This document shows positions 6,219-31,516 of a stretch of 32,436 nt of DNA, piece after piece (within the stretch, counting starts at the first letter, position 1; every line of letters begins with the position of its first letter). Source of the DNA: Nitrospirota bacterium. Its GTDB lineage: Bacteria; Nitrospirota; 9FT-COMBO-42-15; HDB-SIOI813. The DNA is taken from the NCBI GenBank assembly GCA_016212215.1, contig JACRGV010000084.1:1-32436 (forward strand). Reading direction: 5' to 3'. The position numbers and the translations under genes are program-made. The notes below the pieces were generated by a model, which saw only the letters and a program-made list of their open reading frames with translations, searched no databases and had not been told where the DNA came from.

Positions 6219-6395
6219 TAACCCCATCCCCACCCTAACCCTCCCCTTGAAGGGGAGGGAATTATTGAGGCACCCTATCTCTCCAGTTGACGGGGAGGGA
6301 ATTATTGAGGCACCCCCGCCCTGACCCTCCCCCCATCCAAGGGGGAGGGAATCTATGAAATTCCCCCTGACCCCTTAAAAAAAGGGGGCAGGAGG
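6219..6395. repeat. Four consecutive gamma palindromes
   Basis: The units at about 6221-6262, 6270-6302, 6313-6352 and 6360-6400 each contain a C-rich arm of the CCCTCCCC type and a facing GGGGAGGG-type arm. Two are followed by the same AATTATTGAGGCACCC joint, so local duplication is visible. The cluster lies between the sigma-54 promoter and the region where activator sites would be expected. Confidence 0.7.
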
Positions 6396-8485: not shown

Positions 8486-8645
8486 ATGAGCCAAAGCTCA
8501 TAACGGGTTATGAAAATGGAAGCATCCTTCGACAAGCTCAGGATGACACAACCCCACCCTCACCCGGACCCTCTCCCTGAGGGAGAGGGTGCTTAGTTTG
8601 TTCCCTCCCCTTCAAGGGGAGGGTTAGGGTGGGGATGGGGTTTGT
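8486..8645. repeat. Alpha-like palindrome and two gamma modules
   Basis: ATGAGCCAAAGCTCAT followed by ATGAAAAT (8488-8517) is a degenerate alpha linker. Two gamma units follow (CCCTCTCCCTGAGGGAGAGGG near 8570, then CCCTCCCCTTCAAGGGGAGGG near 8602). They would be transcribed in the leader of the kinase gene and can each form a stable hairpin. Confidence 0.75.
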
Positions 8646-8677
8646 TTTTGGAAAAACCACTGAGGACATAGATACCT

Positions 8678-10183
8678 ATGGGAAAATATATCCTTGTGCT
8701 GGACCAGGGTGTGTCGGGGTCAAGGGCAACCCTCACAGAAAACAAAGGAAAGGTTATAGCCTGGGCAGAAACTCCACTCAATACAGTTCCTAATAAGTCA
8801 GGATGGATTGAATACAAGCCAGATGATATCCTCAAAAGTATTCTAAGTGCAGTAAAATCGCTTTTCAAGAAGATTGGTCCTAAAAAAAAGCAAATATCTG
8901 CCATAGGTTTAGCAACTCAGCCTTCTACTATAATTGTATGGGATAAGGAGACAGGTAAATCTCTTTATAATGCAATAAGTGTAAATGACACGCGTGGTAT
9001 TGAAATTTGCAGGGAAAAGAGCAACCACCGTGAAAGCATACGTGAACGAACCGGCCTTCCATTATCAGTCACTTTTTCTGCCCCAAAGTTAAGGTGGCTT
9101 CTGAATAATATTAAACAATCCGGCAAACTTATTGATAAGGGCCGTCTTCTGTGCGGGACAGTCAATACATTTCTGATGTGGCACCTTACAAAGGGCGCAG
9201 TTTTCGCCACAGATCATTCTAATGCCTCAAGGACACTTTTGTTTAATATCCTTACAAAGTCATGGGATAAAGAAATGCTCGAGCTATTTTCCATACCTCC
9301 GGATATACTCCCTAATGTTTATCCGACGTCTCACATTTATGGAGATGCTGTTCTGGAAGGGCAGAGGATACCAATATTAGCGAGTATCGTTGACAAACAT
9401 GCCTCTCTGATTGGCAACGGCTGTATGCAGGAGGGGGAGGTAAATATTACTTATGGTAAGGAAGGGACGATTCAAATTACCACAGGTAAGAAGATTTTTA
9501 TTTTGCATGGCCTGTCGGCTGCAATAGGCTGGTCAACAGATGGGAATGGTAATGGAAATACATCATACATACTTGAAGGGAATATGAAATCTGTCGGGGC
9601 AATATTCCAATGGATGCAAACGAATCTTGGGCTTATCAGCACCAAGCCTAAGGAAAATATTGATGATATATGCCGCCGATCTCAGGAGAGAATATTTATG
9701 GTCCCTGCTATAACAGGGCTGGGTTCACCTTATGGGGAAAAGGGCGTAACTGCATGTCTGTTCGGGATGAGGTCATCTACAACACGGAATGATATTGTAC
9801 GTTCTGCAGTTGAGGCTGTTGCATTTATGGTGAAGGATAATCTGGGCCTTGTAGAAAAGGACAACAGGATTCAAATAAAAAGGATCGTCTCAGGCGGTGA
9901 ACTATCGGAAATATCTTATCTGTTACAGTTCCAATCGGACGTACTTAATATGCCGGTATATAAGACAAAAGAAGATTACCCTGTTGCAGCCGGTATTGCA
10001 TTTTTAATAAATCCGGATGCTAAAAGTATGACGAGTATGAATTTTAATCAAAAATCTCCTGGTTCAAAAAAATCTTTTACTCCAAAGGCCGCAAAGTATA
10101 GTGAGGCAGAGGTGAGAAAATTATATGAGCGTTGGAAGCTCACATGTCTTCATTCCAGAGAATGGTCAAAAAACTTTTCCTGA
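8678..10183 (+). CDS. FGGY-family carbohydrate kinase, glycerol-kinase-like, substrate unknown
   Basis: The 501-aa length and order of motifs match glycerol kinase: an N-terminal phosphate loop DQGVSGSRA (9-17; usually DQGTTSSRA), GWIEYKPDDI, TDHSNASRTLLFNI (178-191) and VSGGELSE near the C-terminus. The positions that hold glycerol in Escherichia coli GlpK (Arg83-Glu84, Tyr135, Asp245) align by eye with Pro82-Ser83, Thr132 and Asp239. Only the catalytic Asp is therefore kept. I read it as an ATP-dependent kinase of a different small polyol or sugar, or a diverged regulator. GAGG lies 12 nt before the ATG. The 3' end overlaps the next gene by 40 bp, so the two are probably co-transcribed. Confidence 0.8.
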   Translation: MGKYILVLDQGVSGSRATLTENKGKVIAWAETPLNTVPNKSGWIEYKPDDILKSILSAVKSLFKKIGPKKKQISAIGLATQPSTIIVWDKETGKSLYNAISVNDTRGIEICREKSNHRESIRERTGLPLSVTFSAPKLRWLLNNIKQSGKLIDKGRLLCGTVNTFLMWHLTKGAVFATDHSNASRTLLFNILTKSWDKEMLELFSIPPDILPNVYPTSHIYGDAVLEGQRIPILASIVDKHASLIGNGCMQEGEVNITYGKEGTIQITTGKKIFILHGLSAAIGWSTDGNGNGNTSYILEGNMKSVGAIFQWMQTNLGLISTKPKENIDDICRRSQERIFMVPAITGLGSPYGEKGVTACLFGMRSSTTRNDIVRSAVEAVAFMVKDNLGLVEKDNRIQIKRIVSGGELSEISYLLQFQSDVLNMPVYKTKEDYPVAAGIAFLINPDAKSMTSMNFNQKSPGSKKSFTPKAAKYSEAEVRKLYERWKLTCLHSREWSKNFS

Positions 10184-13041
10184 TTCTTCTTGTCATTCTT
10201 TCATTAAATTCCTCCGGTTGTACATCTGTTTTTAAATCATACGTATCGGATTCAAACCTGAAAAAGGGTAAAAAGCTTATTGAAAAACGTAAGTATGATG
10301 AGGCTGAAACTACTGTTATGAAGGCGATTGCCTATCAACCGGATAATTCTAAGGCTTGGATTACACTTGGCGACATCTTCTTATCAATTGAAGATTATAA
10401 CAGCGCTGAGAATATGTATAAAGAGGGGATAAGGCGGGATAAAAATGCCTATGATGCTTATGCAGGTTTATGGGCATTAGAGCTTGAAGAAACCGGTTAT
10501 ACAGAAGAAGTTAAGGTAAAGGTAAAAAAGGAGATTGAGGGATTTATTGATAATGGTGAGAAAAAGCCTGAGAGATTAATGGCAGCATATAAAGGTTTAA
10601 ACTTTCTTCATGAATATGACAAGTCAGCAGAACTCGCAAGAGACATAGTTGATTCAGGTGCAGATAAAAAGACTGTTGGTCTACTTGCTCTTGATATTTT
10701 TGAAGAGTTATTAAGAGAAAAGGATGCAGTTAAAAGGCTTGCCAAGATAGATGAGTTTATGAAAACATTTTCTATGAGCAGGGAACATGTATATTTAGAA
10801 AATGTTATGCGGCTCAATATCGCTGCAGGTGAACTTAATGATAAAGAACTTTTATACAAATATGGAGAAGACTGGATCAGGAACGACCCTGATAACAGAA
10901 GGGCAAACTTTATTGTCGCTAAAAATTATGTAGACTCAGATATTGCGTTGGACAGGGCAGTTGATTATCTGAAAAAGGCATTAACTTTGATTAAAGAGCC
11001 TGACCCGGCGGACAAACCTGAATTTTATCCTGATGCTGAATGGTATAAGGACCTAAAAAAATCAGAGAGTGTATATTATGACACACTTGGGTGGGCATAC
11101 TATAAGCTTGGAAGATACAGAGATGCTGAGCGGGCATATAATATGGGAGAGAAGTATAATGATTTTAACTCAAGCCTGTATTATCACGCGGGCGTGCTGG
11201 AGGAAAAAGAGGGGAAAATAGAGGATGCACTGTTTTCATACATAAACGCATTAAAGGCCGGAGAAAATGACAATGCATATCAAAACCTCGGTAATATTTT
11301 AGAGACTCATTACAGCATAAAAGAACCGTTCTACAAGGTATTTGCCGGAATGGAGGGGCTTACAACATTTACAGATGTAACTGAAGTGGCAGGGCTGAAA
11401 GGGGTTAACACTCAACGCGTGAGCTGGGGGGATTACAACAATGACGGTTATGATGATCTGCTATTTAACGGATATATGCTGTATAAAAATAACGGTGACG
11501 GGACATTTAAAAATGTTACACAAGAGGCAGGGATTGCTTATGTCACCGGTGCAAACGGCGGGGTGTGGGGCGATTTTGATAATGATGGTAATCTTGATTT
11601 TTACACGTTTGCATCGGGTAAAGATTCTACTGACAGGTTCTGGAGAAACAATGGGGATGGGACATTTACTGATATTACAAAAAACGCCGCACAAACACCT
11701 GATCCATTTCCTTCTGAGGCCGCGGCATGGGGGGATTATGACAAGGATGGGTTTATAGATATATATGTTGCCAATTATGAAAAACCTTTGTTCACGACTA
11801 TAGAAAGGGCTATGGGGACACCTGACCGGCTGTATCATAATAATGGTGACAATACGTTTGAAGAAGTAAGCACTGCCGCTGGGATTGCCCCGCCTGAAAA
11901 TATGTGTGGAAGGGGTGTCAGTTGGGGAGACTATGACAATGATGGAGACCCTGATATTTATGTTTCCAATTACAGGCTTGACTCGAATTTTTTGTGGAGG
12001 AATAACACTTCACCCATCCATCTCCCCTCACCCTTACCCTCTCCCCTTAGGGGAGAGGGAATATTTTCCAATGTTGCTGAAGAGGCAGGGGCAGAGGGAT
12101 ATGAGCAGGAGGGGATGTACGGACATTCAATAGGTGCAGACTGGGGAGATTATAATAATGACGGTAACCTCGACCTTTTTGTCTCTAATCTTGCACACCC
12201 CCGGTACATCGGATTCTCTGATAAGAGTATGTTATTGGAGAATCAGGGGCCTCCTGATTATCGTTTCAAAGATAGGTTCGGGAGTTCCGGTATAAGGTTT
12301 GAAGAAACAACGGCTGACCCTTCTTTTGCAGACTATGATAATGACGGTATGCTTGACCTGTTTTTTACTTCCACTTATGAAGGAAAGAAGAGTTTCCTTT
12401 ATAAAGGTAATGGTGATGGAACGTTTACTGATATTACCTGGCTTGCCGGTGTGAGGGTGGATAATGGCTGGGGGAATGCTTTTGCAGACTTTGATAATGA
12501 CGGTGACCTTGATCTGATAACAGCAAGCGGAACCGGCAATGGTGTACGGCTCTTTAGAAATGATGGTAATGGTAACCACTATCTACAGGTAAAAGTGGTC
12601 GGCAGTAAGTCAAACCGTTCAGGTATCGGGGCAAGGGTGACAGTTATGCGGAAATCGGATTGCGGAAAGGAAATGTCACTGAACGAGCCGCTTACAAAGG
12701 GGCATGAAGAACAGCGGGACAAGAATGTCCCGCCTATCCTCAATTTATTATTCACGGATAGGCAGTCTTCCCCATTTGTGGATGGGGGGTCATCTCTATT
12801 TATGGATAGGCGGGGTTTTCCAACCCCGCCGGAAGAAGGATCTTCGTGTGCAAACGAAACTATGAAACAGATCAGGGAAGTGCAGGGTGGGAAGGGGAGC
12901 GGGTCTCAACATTCGATGATTGCCTCGTTTGGATTCGGCAGGTATGATGGAGTGGTTGATGTAGAGGTAACATTTCCATCAGGCAAGGTTATTCGTAAGT
13001 CTGATGTAAAAACCGGACAGAGGCTCTTGGTAATAGAATAA
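10144..13041 (+). CDS. TPR / VCBS (FG-GAP) / ASPIC-UnbV lipoprotein carrying two in-frame repeat insertions
   Basis: A signal sequence ends in a lipobox (LNSSGC). TPR-like helical pairs follow (encoded at about 10255-10460 and 11050-11300). Next come seven propeller-type repeats, each with a DxDxDG-like calcium site (W-G-D-Y-N-N-D-G-Y-D-D and variants) and usually N-N-G-D-G-T-F, encoded from about 11420 to 12570. An ASPIC/UnbV domain closes the protein (GIGARVTV ... REVQGGKGSGSQ ... VTFPSGKV). Such proteins are extracytoplasmic and often of unknown substrate. Two repeat modules lie in frame: gamma at 12005-12062 splits a repeat between its N-N and G-x-F, and alpha-beta at 12674-12856 splits the UnbV domain. 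The reading frame survives both. The start is taken at ATG 10144 (GGAAG upstream); ATG 10162 is possible. Confidence 0.85.
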   Translation: MSSFQRMVKKLFLILLVILSLNSSGCTSVFKSYVSDSNLKKGKKLIEKRKYDEAETTVMKAIAYQPDNSKAWITLGDIFLSIEDYNSAENMYKEGIRRDKNAYDAYAGLWALELEETGYTEEVKVKVKKEIEGFIDNGEKKPERLMAAYKGLNFLHEYDKSAELARDIVDSGADKKTVGLLALDIFEELLREKDAVKRLAKIDEFMKTFSMSREHVYLENVMRLNIAAGELNDKELLYKYGEDWIRNDPDNRRANFIVAKNYVDSDIALDRAVDYLKKALTLIKEPDPADKPEFYPDAEWYKDLKKSESVYYDTLGWAYYKLGRYRDAERAYNMGEKYNDFNSSLYYHAGVLEEKEGKIEDALFSYINALKAGENDNAYQNLGNILETHYSIKEPFYKVFAGMEGLTTFTDVTEVAGLKGVNTQRVSWGDYNNDGYDDLLFNGYMLYKNNGDGTFKNVTQEAGIAYVTGANGGVWGDFDNDGNLDFYTFASGKDSTDRFWRNNGDGTFTDITKNAAQTPDPFPSEAAAWGDYDKDGFIDIYVANYEKPLFTTIERAMGTPDRLYHNNGDNTFEEVSTAAGIAPPENMCGRGVSWGDYDNDGDPDIYVSNYRLDSNFLWRNNTSPIHLPSPLPSPLRGEGIFSNVAEEAGAEGYEQEGMYGHSIGADWGDYNNDGNLDLFVSNLAHPRYIGFSDKSMLLENQGPPDYRFKDRFGSSGIRFEETTADPSFADYDNDGMLDLFFTSTYEGKKSFLYKGNGDGTFTDITWLAGVRVDNGWGNAFADFDNDGDLDLITASGTGNGVRLFRNDGNGNHYLQVKVVGSKSNRSGIGARVTVMRKSDCGKEMSLNEPLTKGHEEQRDKNVPPILNLLFTDRQSSPFVDGGSSLFMDRRGFPTPPEEGSSCANETMKQIREVQGGKGSGSQHSMIASFGFGRYDGVVDVEVTFPSGKVIRKSDVKTGQRLLVIE
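12005..12062 (+). repeat. Gamma module inserted in frame in a VCBS repeat
   Basis: The nucleotides contain the gamma palindrome CCCTCTCCCC/GGGGAGAGGG and its CACCCTTACC flank. The translation, SPLPSPLRGEG, interrupts the normal N-N-G-D-G-T-F turn of a calcium-binding repeat. The insert is close to 51-54 bp and keeps the frame. Confidence 0.8.
12674..12856 (+). repeat. Alpha-beta module inserted in frame in the UnbV domain
   Basis: The insertion has the full composite order: GAACGAGCCGCTTACAAAGG and ATGAAGA (alpha), GGGACAAGAATGTCCC, GGATAGGCGGGGTTTTCC with ACCCCGCC (beta), then a degenerate alpha end, CTTCGTGTGCAAAC. It is about 180 bp long, adds about 60 residues between the TVMR strand and the REVQGG motif of the UnbV domain, and contains no stop in this frame. 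Confidence 0.82.
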
Positions 13042-13045
13042 CTTC

Positions 13046-13106
13046 ATTCCCTCCCCCTTGAGGGGGGAGGGTTAGGGTGGGGGTGAGCTATGGTGATTTT
13101 CGGGTG
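13046..13106 (+). repeat. Gamma-alpha repeat carrying the PolX start region
   Basis: CCCTCCCCCTTGAGGGGGGAGGG and the usual GTTAGGGTGGGGGTGAG tail lead directly into GATTTTCGGGTG, the end of an alpha linker, and then the PolX ATG. The alpha core normally continues GATTTTCGGATGAAC, so the start codon falls at the place where the repeat has its own ATG. Confidence 0.7.
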
Positions 13107-15966: not shown

Positions 15967-16923
15967 ATGCGAAATAATAAGAAAATATGGACAATTAAAT
16001 TGATACTTAAATGGGCATCAGAGTATCTTTCTTCACAAAAGATTACAGATGCATATATGGAGGCAGAGTATTTATTGACCCATGCGTTGGATTGCAGCAG
16101 GAAGGAGATATTACTTGACCCTGATAAGGTTCTTTCCAATGAAGAGGTTGTGCGGTTCAATGATTTTATATACAGAAGGGGCAGAAGGGAACCGGCCCAT
16201 TACATTATCGGTGAGGTCGAATTTCGCGGCCTCATCTTTAAGGTAAATAAAGATGTCCTTATCCCGAGACCTGAGACAGAGTTACTGGTAGAAGAGGCGG
16301 TTAATATTGTGAATAAATATGAATGTGATGCCCCTTCGCCCCATTTAGAAAATTCCCTCCCTTTCAAGGGGAGGGTCAGGGTGGGGATGGGTTTAACTTT
16401 GAATAATCTCACCATCCTAGACCTCTGCACCGGCAGCGGATGTATAGCAATATCTATTGCAAAAGAAATTCCTGTAAGCAGGGTATACGCTGTTGACATA
16501 TCAGATGGTGCAGTGAAAATTGCACAGGAGAATGCAAAGAGGAATGGTGTTGATGATAAAATAACATTTCTTACCGGTGACCTTTATAAGGCCATTGAAC
16601 CATTAGGCTTGGAAGGAAAGGTTGACTTACTTGTCTCCAATCCCCCTTATGTCTCAAAGTTAGAAATGGCAGAGTTACAGCCTGAGATAAAGAACTACGA
16701 ACCTCTGCTTGCCCTCTATGGAGGCGAAGACGGCCTTGACTTCTACAGAAGGATCATCCGTGAAGCCCCCCGCTACCTATCTTCCGGTGGATTCTTAATT
16801 ATGGAACTCGGATATGGAGAGGCAGAGGGTGTACGGAGTCTGATTGAGAATGAAAAGTTTTTTAGAGGGATTGAAACTATTAAAGACCTTGCAGGGATAG
16901 ACAGGGTGATTAAGGCAGGATAA
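15967..16923 (+). CDS. prmC: Peptide chain release factor N5-glutamine methyltransferase, with an in-frame repeat insertion
   Basis: The N-terminal helical domain carries LIPRPETELLVEEAV. The Rossmann methyltransferase core has motif I LDLCTGSGCIAI, the acidic strand VYAVDIS and the catalytic SNPPYVS, followed by YEPLLALYGGEDGLDFYRRI, all diagnostic of PrmC/HemK. It methylates the GGQ glutamine of release factors. At about residues 122-142, between the N-terminal domain and motif I, a gamma repeat (CCCTCCCTTTCAAGGGGAGGG plus tail, 16351-16391) is translated as NSLPFKGRVRVGMG. The insert keeps the frame and sits in a linker of variable length, so the enzyme is probably active. No strong ribosome site precedes the ATG. 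The stop faces the TonB-like gene three bases away. Confidence 0.94.
   Translation: MRNNKKIWTIKLILKWASEYLSSQKITDAYMEAEYLLTHALDCSRKEILLDPDKVLSNEEVVRFNDFIYRRGRREPAHYIIGEVEFRGLIFKVNKDVLIPRPETELLVEEAVNIVNKYECDAPSPHLENSLPFKGRVRVGMGLTLNNLTILDLCTGSGCIAISIAKEIPVSRVYAVDISDGAVKIAQENAKRNGVDDKITFLTGDLYKAIEPLGLEGKVDLLVSNPPYVSKLEMAELQPEIKNYEPLLALYGGEDGLDFYRRIIREAPRYLSSGGFLIMELGYGEAEGVRSLIENEKFFRGIETIKDLAGIDRVIKAG
16345..16394 (+). repeat. Gamma module inside prmC
   Basis: This has the same palindrome and GGTCAGGGTGGGGATGGG tail as the intergenic copies at 6240, 8602 and 20135. It is in frame and free of stops in the prmC frame. Confidence 0.85.
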
Positions 16924-19903: not shown

Positions 19904-20340
19904 CAGAGATTTTCGGGGGAACTCACATGAACAAGGGTTCACAAAGGGCCATGAAAATCAGCGGGACAGGAAAGTCCCGCCTGTCCGCATAGAAATGGAT
20001 AGGCGGGGTTTTCTTACCCCGCCGGAAGGGATTTTCGGATGAACTTTCATGAGTGGGGGCGCTCACAAAGGGGAATGAAAACCCCACCCTCACCCTAACC
20101 CTCTCCCTGAGGGAGAGGGGGCTATGTTGATTCCCTCCCCTTCAAGGGGAGGGTTAGGGTGGGGATGGGGTTGATTTTCGGATGAACTCACATGAACCAG
20201 GGTTCACAAAGGGACATGAAAATCAGCGGGACAGGAAAGTCCCGCCTATCCGCATAGAAATGGATAGGCGGGGTTTTCTTACCCCGCCGTAGAGGATTTT
20301 CGGATGAACGCTAATGAGCCTTCAGCTCACAGGAGAATGA
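19904..20340. repeat. Alpha-beta-alpha-gamma-gamma-alpha-beta-alpha array
   Basis: The order is easily read. Alpha (GATTTTCGGGGGAACTCACA .. GGTTCACAAAGG .. ATGAAAA) is followed by beta (GGGACAGGAAAGTCCC .. GGATAGGCGGGG .. ACCCCGCC), alpha, and two gamma palindromes (near 20100 and 20137). Then come alpha, a beta nearly identical to the first, and alpha. The alpha linker flanks every other module. This is the clearest view of the system in the window. Confidence 0.88.
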
Positions 20341-21906: not shown

Positions 21907-21995
21907 AGACCGAAGACTGAAGGTAAAGGCAAGAAGTTAGAAGCAAGAAGCAAGTAGACATCCCCCTTTAGAAAAGGGGGATTGAGGGGGATTTG
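21907..21995. repeat. GAAG-rich simple repeat and gamma palindrome
   Basis: Directly after the mtnA stop lie AAGACTGAAGG and GAAGTTAGAAGCAAGAAGC units, then CCCCCTTTAGAAAAGGGGG. A sister of the GAAG repeat follows the dnaJ stop at 31383-31432. The palindrome may serve as a terminator. Confidence 0.6.
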
Positions 21996-22302: not shown

Positions 22303-22379
22303 CTCCATTTTTATGTTTTCTTAGTTTGCATTACAAATTATAAGTGTGTTATATTTTCAGCAACCGTAACATATATTCA
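22303..22379 (+). repeat. 77-bp direct repeat, left copy
   Basis: It matches 24475-24551 at roughly nine of ten positions. It contains TTGCAT, a 17-bp spacer and TTATAT (22326-22354), a plausible promoter reading toward the restriction-modification genes. It flanks the pair on the left. Confidence 0.8.
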
Positions 22380-22475: not shown

Positions 22476-23447
22476 ATGAAAATGGGAAAAACATTATTGA
22501 GAAATAAAGAATTGCCAACTTTTTTTGGAGAGTTGCAACTCAAAGGGGAAAAAAAAGGAATTGATTTTGCAAAAAGAGATGGCGACTCCCCCATTTTATT
22601 TTACAAACATCCGAACGGTGAATTATGGCAAGGGAATAGTATTGAATGGCTAAAAAGTATGAGCGATGAAAGTATAGATTTGATTTTTGCTGACCCGCCT
22701 TACAATATTAAAAAAGCCAATTGGGACAGCTTTGAAAGCCATGAAGAATATATAAAATGGTCATTGCAATGGATTGAGCAAGCTGCAAGAATTTTAAAAC
22801 CAACAGGAACACTATATATATGTGGTTTTTCTGAAATACTTGCGGACTTAAAACATCCGGCATCAAAGTATTTTACATCGTGCCGCTGGATTATCTGGCA
22901 TTACAAAAACAAAGCAAATCTTGGTAATGATTGGGGACGAAGCCACGAGAGCATTTTGCATTTTCGAAAAACAAAGAGTTTTGTTTTCAATATTGATGAA
23001 ATTCGTATTCCTTATGGCGAACACACTTTAAAATATCCAAGCCATCCGCAAGCCGAAACAAGCCAATATGGAAAGGGCAGAAATGGCAATCATATTTGGG
23101 AGCCAAATCCGCATGGAGCAAAACCAAAAGATGTGTTAGAAATTCCTACTACTTGCAATGGAATGCACGAAAAAACGCCACACCCTACACAGAAGCCCGA
23201 AGAACTTTTAAGGAAATTTATTCTTACATCTTCAAATGTTGGTGAGGTTGTATTAGACCCTTTTTGTGGTTCAGGAACAACTCCTGTTTGTGCAGAACAA
23301 CTTCAGAGAAAATGGCTTGCCTGCGACCTTTCACCAGAATATCTTGATTGGGCTGCAAACAGGATTGAATTGGTTGAAGATTGGCCGATTGAGCAATGGA
23401 TTAAATACGATTTTGAAAACCTTAAAAGAAGAAACTCTATACGATGA
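22476..23447 (+). CDS. Type II DNA methyltransferase, beta-class (N6-adenine or N4-cytosine)
   Basis: The catalytic DPPY (73-76) comes before the AdoMet loop DPFCGSGTT (261-269), which is the beta-class order. The stretch after DPPY (NIKKANWDSFESHEEYIKW) and TPHPTQKPEEL fit the N6/N4 methylase family that includes MboII- and RsrI-type adenine enzymes. The 323-aa length is normal. It overlaps the next gene by ATGA, typical of a restriction-modification pair. The ribosome site is weak. The AT-rich codon choice differs by eye from the housekeeping genes and suggests transfer. The recognition site cannot be read from the sequence. Confidence 0.92.
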   Translation: MKMGKTLLRNKELPTFFGELQLKGEKKGIDFAKRDGDSPILFYKHPNGELWQGNSIEWLKSMSDESIDLIFADPPYNIKKANWDSFESHEEYIKWSLQWIEQAARILKPTGTLYICGFSEILADLKHPASKYFTSCRWIIWHYKNKANLGNDWGRSHESILHFRKTKSFVFNIDEIRIPYGEHTLKYPSHPQAETSQYGKGRNGNHIWEPNPHGAKPKDVLEIPTTCNGMHEKTPHPTQKPEELLRKFILTSSNVGEVVLDPFCGSGTTPVCAEQLQRKWLACDLSPEYLDWAANRIELVEDWPIEQWIKYDFENLKRRNSIR

Positions 23448-24343
23448 CTCTAAAACAGCTTGTAAAACAAGCCACAAATAAGGATAACTTCAAAGACCTT
23501 AAAGGTTTTATCTCATTTTGTAACGAGTACCTGGCATTTATCAGCAGCAATCTTCAGGCAGTAATTATTTCTCAAAATGAAAACCATTATCGCTTCTACC
23601 AGTATGATAAAACCGGAAATTATCAAATTACCAGACCTATCAACTCAAACCTGATGTATGATGCAAAAGGATTTGCAAAAGCGTCAAAAGAATACATGAA
23701 AATATTGAAAGTAGTAAAAAATGCAGACAAGAAAGATGATTCAATCAGAAAAATCATAAATAACTCTACATACACTATTCAACAATCAATTGGAGCAGCA
23801 TTGGATGGATTACCTGCCGGAAAATCAAATACTGCAAGAAAATTGACTGGAGATTTGTTCGAGCGTTTTATCCGGTTACTCATTCATGAAATCGGAATTG
23901 ATTGTAGAACAGGAGTAATACAGGTTCCTGTAATTGTTGATGGGCAAGCCCAATTCAATATGAGCTATCAGCACGACCTTATCATTGAAAAAGATGATGA
24001 TATAAAAGTAATTGGATCAATCAAAACATCAAGCAAAGACCGAATAGACAAGATTTTCATTGATAAATTCCTATACAATAAATTGACAGAGAAGGATACG
24101 CCGCATATAGCCGTATTCCTTAATGATGTGCAAAGGAAGAATACAAAAAAAGAAAACGAATACGGTATAAATGCAACATTCCTTCCGGGCCACTTCAAGG
24201 GTTATACAGTTAAGTTAAATCCCCTGGACGGTGTTTATTATTGCGACATCAGACCCAATATGAAAACTGAAAATATTTTGAAGGACCAAGTCAAAACCTT
24301 TGACCATTTGCTGATTGAAGATATTTGGAAGTTCATAGAATAA
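23444..24343 (+). CDS. Probable type II restriction endonuclease
   Basis: The 299-aa protein is translationally coupled to the methyltransferase. A conserved-looking core runs GDLFERFIRLLIHEIG (with E140), then QHDLIIEKDDDIKVIGSIKT, which could form a PD-(D/E)XK-type site: Asp178 on one strand and S-I-K (192-194) on the next. The acidic residue of the E-x-K pair would be replaced by Ser, as happens in some restriction enzymes, and E140 may contribute. I know of no close relative by eye, so the assignment rests on the overlap and this motif. Confidence 0.75.
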   Translation: MTLKQLVKQATNKDNFKDLKGFISFCNEYLAFISSNLQAVIISQNENHYRFYQYDKTGNYQITRPINSNLMYDAKGFAKASKEYMKILKVVKNADKKDDSIRKIINNSTYTIQQSIGAALDGLPAGKSNTARKLTGDLFERFIRLLIHEIGIDCRTGVIQVPVIVDGQAQFNMSYQHDLIIEKDDDIKVIGSIKTSSKDRIDKIFIDKFLYNKLTEKDTPHIAVFLNDVQRKNTKKENEYGINATFLPGHFKGYTVKLNPLDGVYYCDIRPNMKTENILKDQVKTFDHLLIEDIWKFIE

Positions 24344-24474: not shown

Positions 24475-24551
24475 TCTCCATTTTAAGTTTTCTTAGTTTG
24501 CATTGCAAATTATAAGTGTGTTATATTTTCAGCAGCCATAACATATATTCA
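24475..24551 (+). repeat. 77-bp direct repeat, right copy
   Basis: It carries the same promoter-like elements as the left copy (TTGCAT, 17 bp, TTATAT at 24498-24526). It runs into the truncated HEPN gene. Confidence 0.8.
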
Positions 24552-31382: not shown

Positions 31383-31516
31383 AAGTTAGAAGTTTGAAGC
31401 AAGAATCAAGAAGTAAGAAGTAAGAAGTAAGACTGTTGATAGTGAATGGTGAATCTTTCGCTATGCGGAAGGGATGACAGCTAAGCTTCCCTCCCCATTG
31501 AGGGGGGATGAGCTAT
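31383..31516. repeat. GAAG-type simple repeat, heptamer scrap and gamma module
   Basis: AGAAGTTAGAAGTTTGAAGC and three AGAAGTA units follow the dnaJ stop. They are followed by a heptamer-type GATAGTGAATGGTGAA and CCCTCCCCATTGAGGGGGG. Confidence 0.65.

Follow-up and report, generated by a model that had tools for sequence, protein, structure and literature searches.

Palindromic repeats were found in frame within conserved genes of this Nitrospirota bacterium at places where the orthologues lack them, the combination by which protein-coding palindromic repeats are recognized, and these insertions very probably persist as translated, tolerated loops. The material was one metagenome assembly (2.99 Mb, 164 contigs); the window, meaning the whole stretch of DNA analysed, is its 32,436-nt contig C84.

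Two unrelated elements in an FG-GAP/UnbV_ASPIC gene

The host gene (10132-13041, + strand), delimited by its open reading frame, Pfam matches, and orthologues, encodes 969 amino acids. Its product combines TPR repeats and eight FG-GAP/VCBS stretches with an UnbV_ASPIC domain at the C terminus, and translation may in fact begin at the ATG at 10144. The palindrome CCCTTACCCTCTCCCCTTAGGGGAGAGGG, which the sequence-only reading had placed in frame inside one of the FG-GAP/VCBS repeats, was confirmed at 12031-12059 and reads in frame as TSPIHLPSPLPSPLRGEG. Fold computation gave a hairpin of 10 bp and -21.2 kcal/mol with z = -3.2 (CCCTCTCCCC-TTA-GGGGAGAGGG, 12037-12059, + strand). By sequence comparison, the palindrome and the C-rich leader before it make up a copy of element 1, subtype E1c (12018-12060, + strand). 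This minority subtype is rare in the genome, and the exact 29-mer of the copy had no second occurrence in the window; it was found elsewhere on contigs C2, C124, and C77 (reversed on the last) and in the relative G002.

The site is covered by seven orthologues from the same GTDB family, which were aligned together with one from another family; the insert (insert A) is missing from all seven, the congener included, and from the eighth as well. The net added coding stretch was 45 nt (12007-12051, + strand), that is, 15 amino acids (residues 626-640, TSPIHLPSPLPSPLR) and not the 17-18 residues first proposed. The turn at this site reads NN-G-[D/N]-G-[T/S]-F in the orthologues (NN-GNGTF in the congener and NN-GDGTF in most others), and intact N-N-G-D-G-T-F turns were present, as had been stated, in neighbouring repeats of the host protein. 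The 3' arm of the element encodes G-E-G where the native protein has G-D-G. The initial description of a turn split by the palindrome needs correction: no native G-D-G-T-F was found downstream of the insert, the native G-x-G-T-F being lost and the element's own G-E-G-I-F occupying that place. The calcium-binding DxDxDG motif was unaffected, and the insert sits in the turn joining two propeller strands. When the empty site of the relative L061 (AAT AAT GGG GAT GGG ACG TTT) was compared with the end of the element (AGG GGA GAG GGA ATA TTT), site and element arm were found to be alike, and this likeness, seen at one site, may be a trace of microhomology-guided insertion.

Further downstream, the same gene carries element 2, unrelated to element 1 and absent from the earlier reading. 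This insert (insert B; 12676-12846, + strand, ends approximate) contains several hairpins, belongs to repeat families D2 and D5, and adds about 57 residues in frame (about 849-905) within UnbV_ASPIC; it was missing from the congener and the other orthologues. A genome search with its peptide gave 244 matches (E <= 10), and the fold of 12709-12838 had z = -5.6. Different additional residues were seen in this gene in two relatives: L061 has PSEVRSRKSEV in the UnbV loop and PFSSGERKEVRDSTG elsewhere, and L004 has RHPEPGLLSPGEETTK in the UnbV loop.

The frame is kept and remains open to the end of the gene, as the sequence-only reading had maintained. Compared with the congener, dN/dS was 0.17/1.4 before the inserts, 0.10/1.8 between them, and 0.22/1.0 after them, a contrast that mostly records divergence older than the insertions, with dS near saturation. 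Because the gene is open to its end and dN is much smaller than dS in each of the three segments, it is judged to be alive and no pseudogene. Residues 405-969 were modelled with AlphaFold (mean pLDDT 81.5, pTM 0.83), and the model retained the strands flanking both inserts, which were themselves predicted with lower confidence (pLDDT about 60 for insert A and <50 for insert B); the nearest known fold to this model was that of mouse CRTAC1.

Distribution of the elements in the window and the genome

The palindrome had been described as intergenic at least seven times in the window. This held: eight intergenic family copies with <=1 mismatch were counted (5246, 6233, 6319, 8563, 8616, 13064, 20093, and 20146). 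The copy at 16368 is not intergenic and lies in frame inside prmC. Among the intergenic copies are a cluster at 6220-6352 (+ strand), a pair of E1b followed by inverted E1a at 8550-8657 (repeat D10), a copy directly after the host gene at 13049-13086 (- strand), and a composite at 19908-20318, in which an E1b-E1a inverted pair is flanked on both sides by element 2 copies (repeats D1, D4, and D10). The second window gene with an in-frame element, prmC (15967-16923, + strand), was assigned from its PrmC_N and methyltransferase domains and its orthologues. Its element 1 copy (E1a, 16352-16394, - strand) is read as NSLPFKGRVRVGMGL and is missing from the orthologues; those of G005 and G008 have different extra residues (SPHPPLSKGGMGERGGL and IPLFPPLLKGERGGL, respectively) slightly further on. 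The prmC copy just precedes the methyltransferase motif. Elsewhere in the window, two 71-nt direct repeats, 94% identical (22309-22379 and 24481-24551), flank a DNA methylase gene (22476-23447) and the gene that follows it (23444-24343).

Element 1 has a consensus of about 44 nt derived from 137 copies (AACCCCATCCCCACCCTAACCCTCCCCTTGAAGGGGAGGGAATT), with the subtypes E1a, E1b, E1c, and E1d. Its pattern matched the genome 477+403 times (about 880), compared with 3+6 for the reversed control, and its abundance is far beyond chance; the congener gave 22+8 matches (30) and G002 84+82. The G-rich strand (GGGGAGGGTTAGGGTGGGGATGGGG) of the consensus and of the copy at 12018-12060 matches the canonical G-quadruplex pattern, and transcripts of antisense copies could therefore form RNA quadruplexes.

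Within a 428-kb sample (14% of the genome) consisting of the window and stretches chosen from large contigs, 141 palindromic element 1 copies were found, 23 of them inside mechanically called ORFs of >=150 aa; five of the in-gene copies come from a single MMPL gene. Extrapolated by length from this sample, the genome appears to hold about 160 in-gene copies. Six pattern matches that had no palindrome partner, including those in a CxxCH cytochrome-like ORF (L199) and a GTPase-like ORF (L208), were discarded as chance. As ORFs made up 78% of the sampled sequence and held 16% of the copies, either in-gene insertions are mostly purged or insertion avoids genes.

The element 1 hosts were LigA (two copies), MetG, formate-THF ligase, PrmC, CheA, CheB, CheR, a TPP enzyme, an MMPL transporter, a glycosyltransferase, and others. 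Element 2 was located in an SdhA/FrdA-like flavoprotein, a U32 peptidase, an SLT transglycosylase, MutL, a valyl-type tRNA synthetase, DNA polymerase I, a UvrD-type helicase, a DHODB-like protein, a HypC/radical SAM protein, and a second FG-GAP/UnbV protein. Insertion was judged against relatives for the host gene, LigA, and PrmC, and against Pfam and solved homologues for the other genes. LigA (L207:4960-7149) is the clearest case: a 52-residue insert with two element 1 copies interrupts the adenylation domain between RRD and SLDYE, at a site that is contiguous in all aligned relatives and lies between residues 275 and 277 of the solved structure 2owo. In MetG, 62 residues beyond those of its closest solved homologue lie between the catalytic and anticodon-binding domains, and formate-THF ligase has about 36 residues extra relative to its solved homologue.

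In an FG-GAP/UnbV paralogue with HEAT repeats on contig C26 (L180:341-3991), a composite insert of about 110 residues, built of elements 1 and 2, was found at the same type of turn as insert A, and for this reason the FG-GAP turn looks permissive to insertion. Four similar tandem TPR proteins (L202:7532-16872) have element 2 at a similar place in all four, as would be expected if the element inserted before the genes duplicated or was copied from one to another. Stretches such as RSKKSEVRSQKLEVRYDESEARSKKSE occur in CheR and MMPL proteins (L207:7931-9481 and L201:16880-19999) and are similar to translated tandem repeats of the AAGTTAGAAGCAAGAAG type that are found in spacers (window 21918-21954 and 31388-31431); these repeats are possibly a third family inside genes.

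Translation, rival explanations, and mode of spread

In the preferred explanation, short GC-rich palindromic repeats would have multiplied in this Nitrospirota lineage, mostly between genes, and a minority would have landed inside genes with a length and phase that kept the reading frame open, persisting there as translated, mostly unstructured loops. In the host gene, element 1 would occupy the strand-connecting propeller turn, with G-E-G-I-F standing in for G-D-G-T-F, and element 2 a loop of UnbV_ASPIC. We infer tolerance of the repeats and not selection for the peptide they encode, because from gene to gene one element is read in several frames.

The reading of the elements as protein was examined with a frame test, which took the sites where both flanks scored as coding, on one strand, and classified them before any ORF was chosen. 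Under the strict setting, 11 sites were in phase and open and 2 were out of phase (p = 2e-4 against a 1/3 chance), and other settings gave 16:2 and 17:1; at the exceptions, stops lay right at the element and the sites resembled gene ends. The kept frame supports translation of the element-encoded residues and, at 16-17 of 18 sites, favours read-through over their removal. We considered whether the elements might be removed or skipped before the finished protein is made, by RNA excision, bypassing like that of mitochondrial byps, or protein splicing, so that a normal product would be kept. The compact hairpins of the elements and the expected essentiality of the genes that bear them would suit such a process, but RNA removal or bypassing needs no kept frame, the inserts vary in length and subtype, and those of the host gene all lie in turns and loops. 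In addition, an Rfam scan of the window returned a tRNA as its sole match and no known self-splicing RNA family. Removal at the RNA level was accordingly disfavoured by the frame test, and removal in any form is highly improbable.

It is just as improbable that selection keeps the inserted residues for some role of their own, such as binding or regulation by a propeller exposed at the surface. The presence of two inserts in one protein, and the long insert of the L180 paralogue at the same turn type, could be taken to suggest it; against it, unrelated genes read one element in different frames, and copies inside genes are far fewer than the share of coding sequence would predict. An assembly artefact in which repeats were stitched into genes, or a set of decaying genes, might be suspected in a metagenome assembly of many contigs with hundreds of repeat copies, yet it is very unlikely, since every insert links both halves of one gene in frame where mis-joins would pair unrelated flanks, the genes are open to their ends with low dN relative to dS, a search of this genome found no second ligA, and separately assembled relatives have their own inserts in the same genes.

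The check proposed in the sequence-only reading, alignment with orthologues, came out in its favour: the congener and the family lack the extra residues, and no repeat-free relative carrying the same residues was found among the aligned orthologues. Its interpretation that the insertion was accepted as protein is therefore supported, with translation deduced from the kept frame; the in-frame copy in prmC, like element 2, had escaped it.

A profile search of the genome for Y1_Tnp (PF01797) gave no match, while the same profile matched in 5 of 14 control genomes. With no such gene detected, a Y1 transposase was rejected as the mover, and the candidates would be an unrecognised transposase or copying by microhomology or template switching. 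Orientation was counted in the L191-L210 sample and the window. Between tandem genes, E1a and E1d were predominantly antisense to the genes (51:5) and E1b predominantly sense (4:19), and inside genes the corresponding counts were 16:0 and 1:4. Peptide selection was rejected as the cause of the in-gene bias, because the intergenic copies are biased alike. A broader proposal is tentative and on balance doubtful: that several unrelated palindrome families spread in this lineage, both into spacers and into genes, by transposase-independent, strand-oriented copying (such as template switching at microhomology, for instance between GGGGATGGGA in the FG-GAP turn and GGGGAGAGGGA in the element) and are a general source of new loops in essential enzymes.

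Relation to known protein-coding palindromes

The best-known protein-coding palindromes are those of the intracellular Rickettsiales, together with scattered REPs inside genes. The palindromic elements of Rickettsia and Wolbachia (RPE and WPE) occur both in spacers and, in frame, inside conserved genes, where they are read as extra residues, and the Gmk of R. conorii, which contains such an element, was reported to be translated and active (PMC2229807, PMC3767692). The palindromes described here are likewise both intergenic and in frame in conserved genes. They differ in that the host is a Nitrospirota and that several unrelated families occur in one gene; as for length, RPE and WPE span 100-150 nt, whereas element 1 is short and GC-rich and element 2 is longer (D1, 146 nt). 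This comparison with the RPE families is one of features.

Some intragenic REPs lie in replication and repair genes, with DNA ligase (Opitutus terrae), UvrA, PolI, and tRNA synthetases among their hosts (PMC3733652). Element 1 resembles REPs as a short, high-copy palindrome that often forms inverted pairs and lies mostly between tandem genes, but the consensus of its 137 copies has no GTAG or CGTC tag at its ends, and the genome has no detected Y1/RAYT transposase, so the classical REP-RAYT pairing was not seen. Bacterial MITEs with coding potential (ERIC/RU-1 and the 107-bp form of Correia) are non-autonomous and form in-frame fusions with ORFs (PMC2229807); in the present elements, neither clear IS-type terminal repeats nor an obvious target-site duplication was seen at the compared sites, where the empty sites of the relatives have diverged.

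In-frame protein-coding palindromes are thus an already known phenomenon, as RPEs and intragenic REPs attest. What sets the present case apart is their occurrence in Nitrospirota, as untagged families, in a genome where no Y1 transposase was detected, with two families in one gene and at a high load; a literature search, conducted mostly outside subscription journals, found no account of these elements in Nitrospirota. A 3-Mb genome that appears to carry many in-gene copies of element 1, and element 2 besides, in ligA, metG, and the genes for ValRS, PolI, and MutL among others, beside a congener with few element 1 copies, offers a natural experiment on the number of random peptide loops that essential enzymes tolerate, and on the spread of palindromes where no Y1 transposase is detected.
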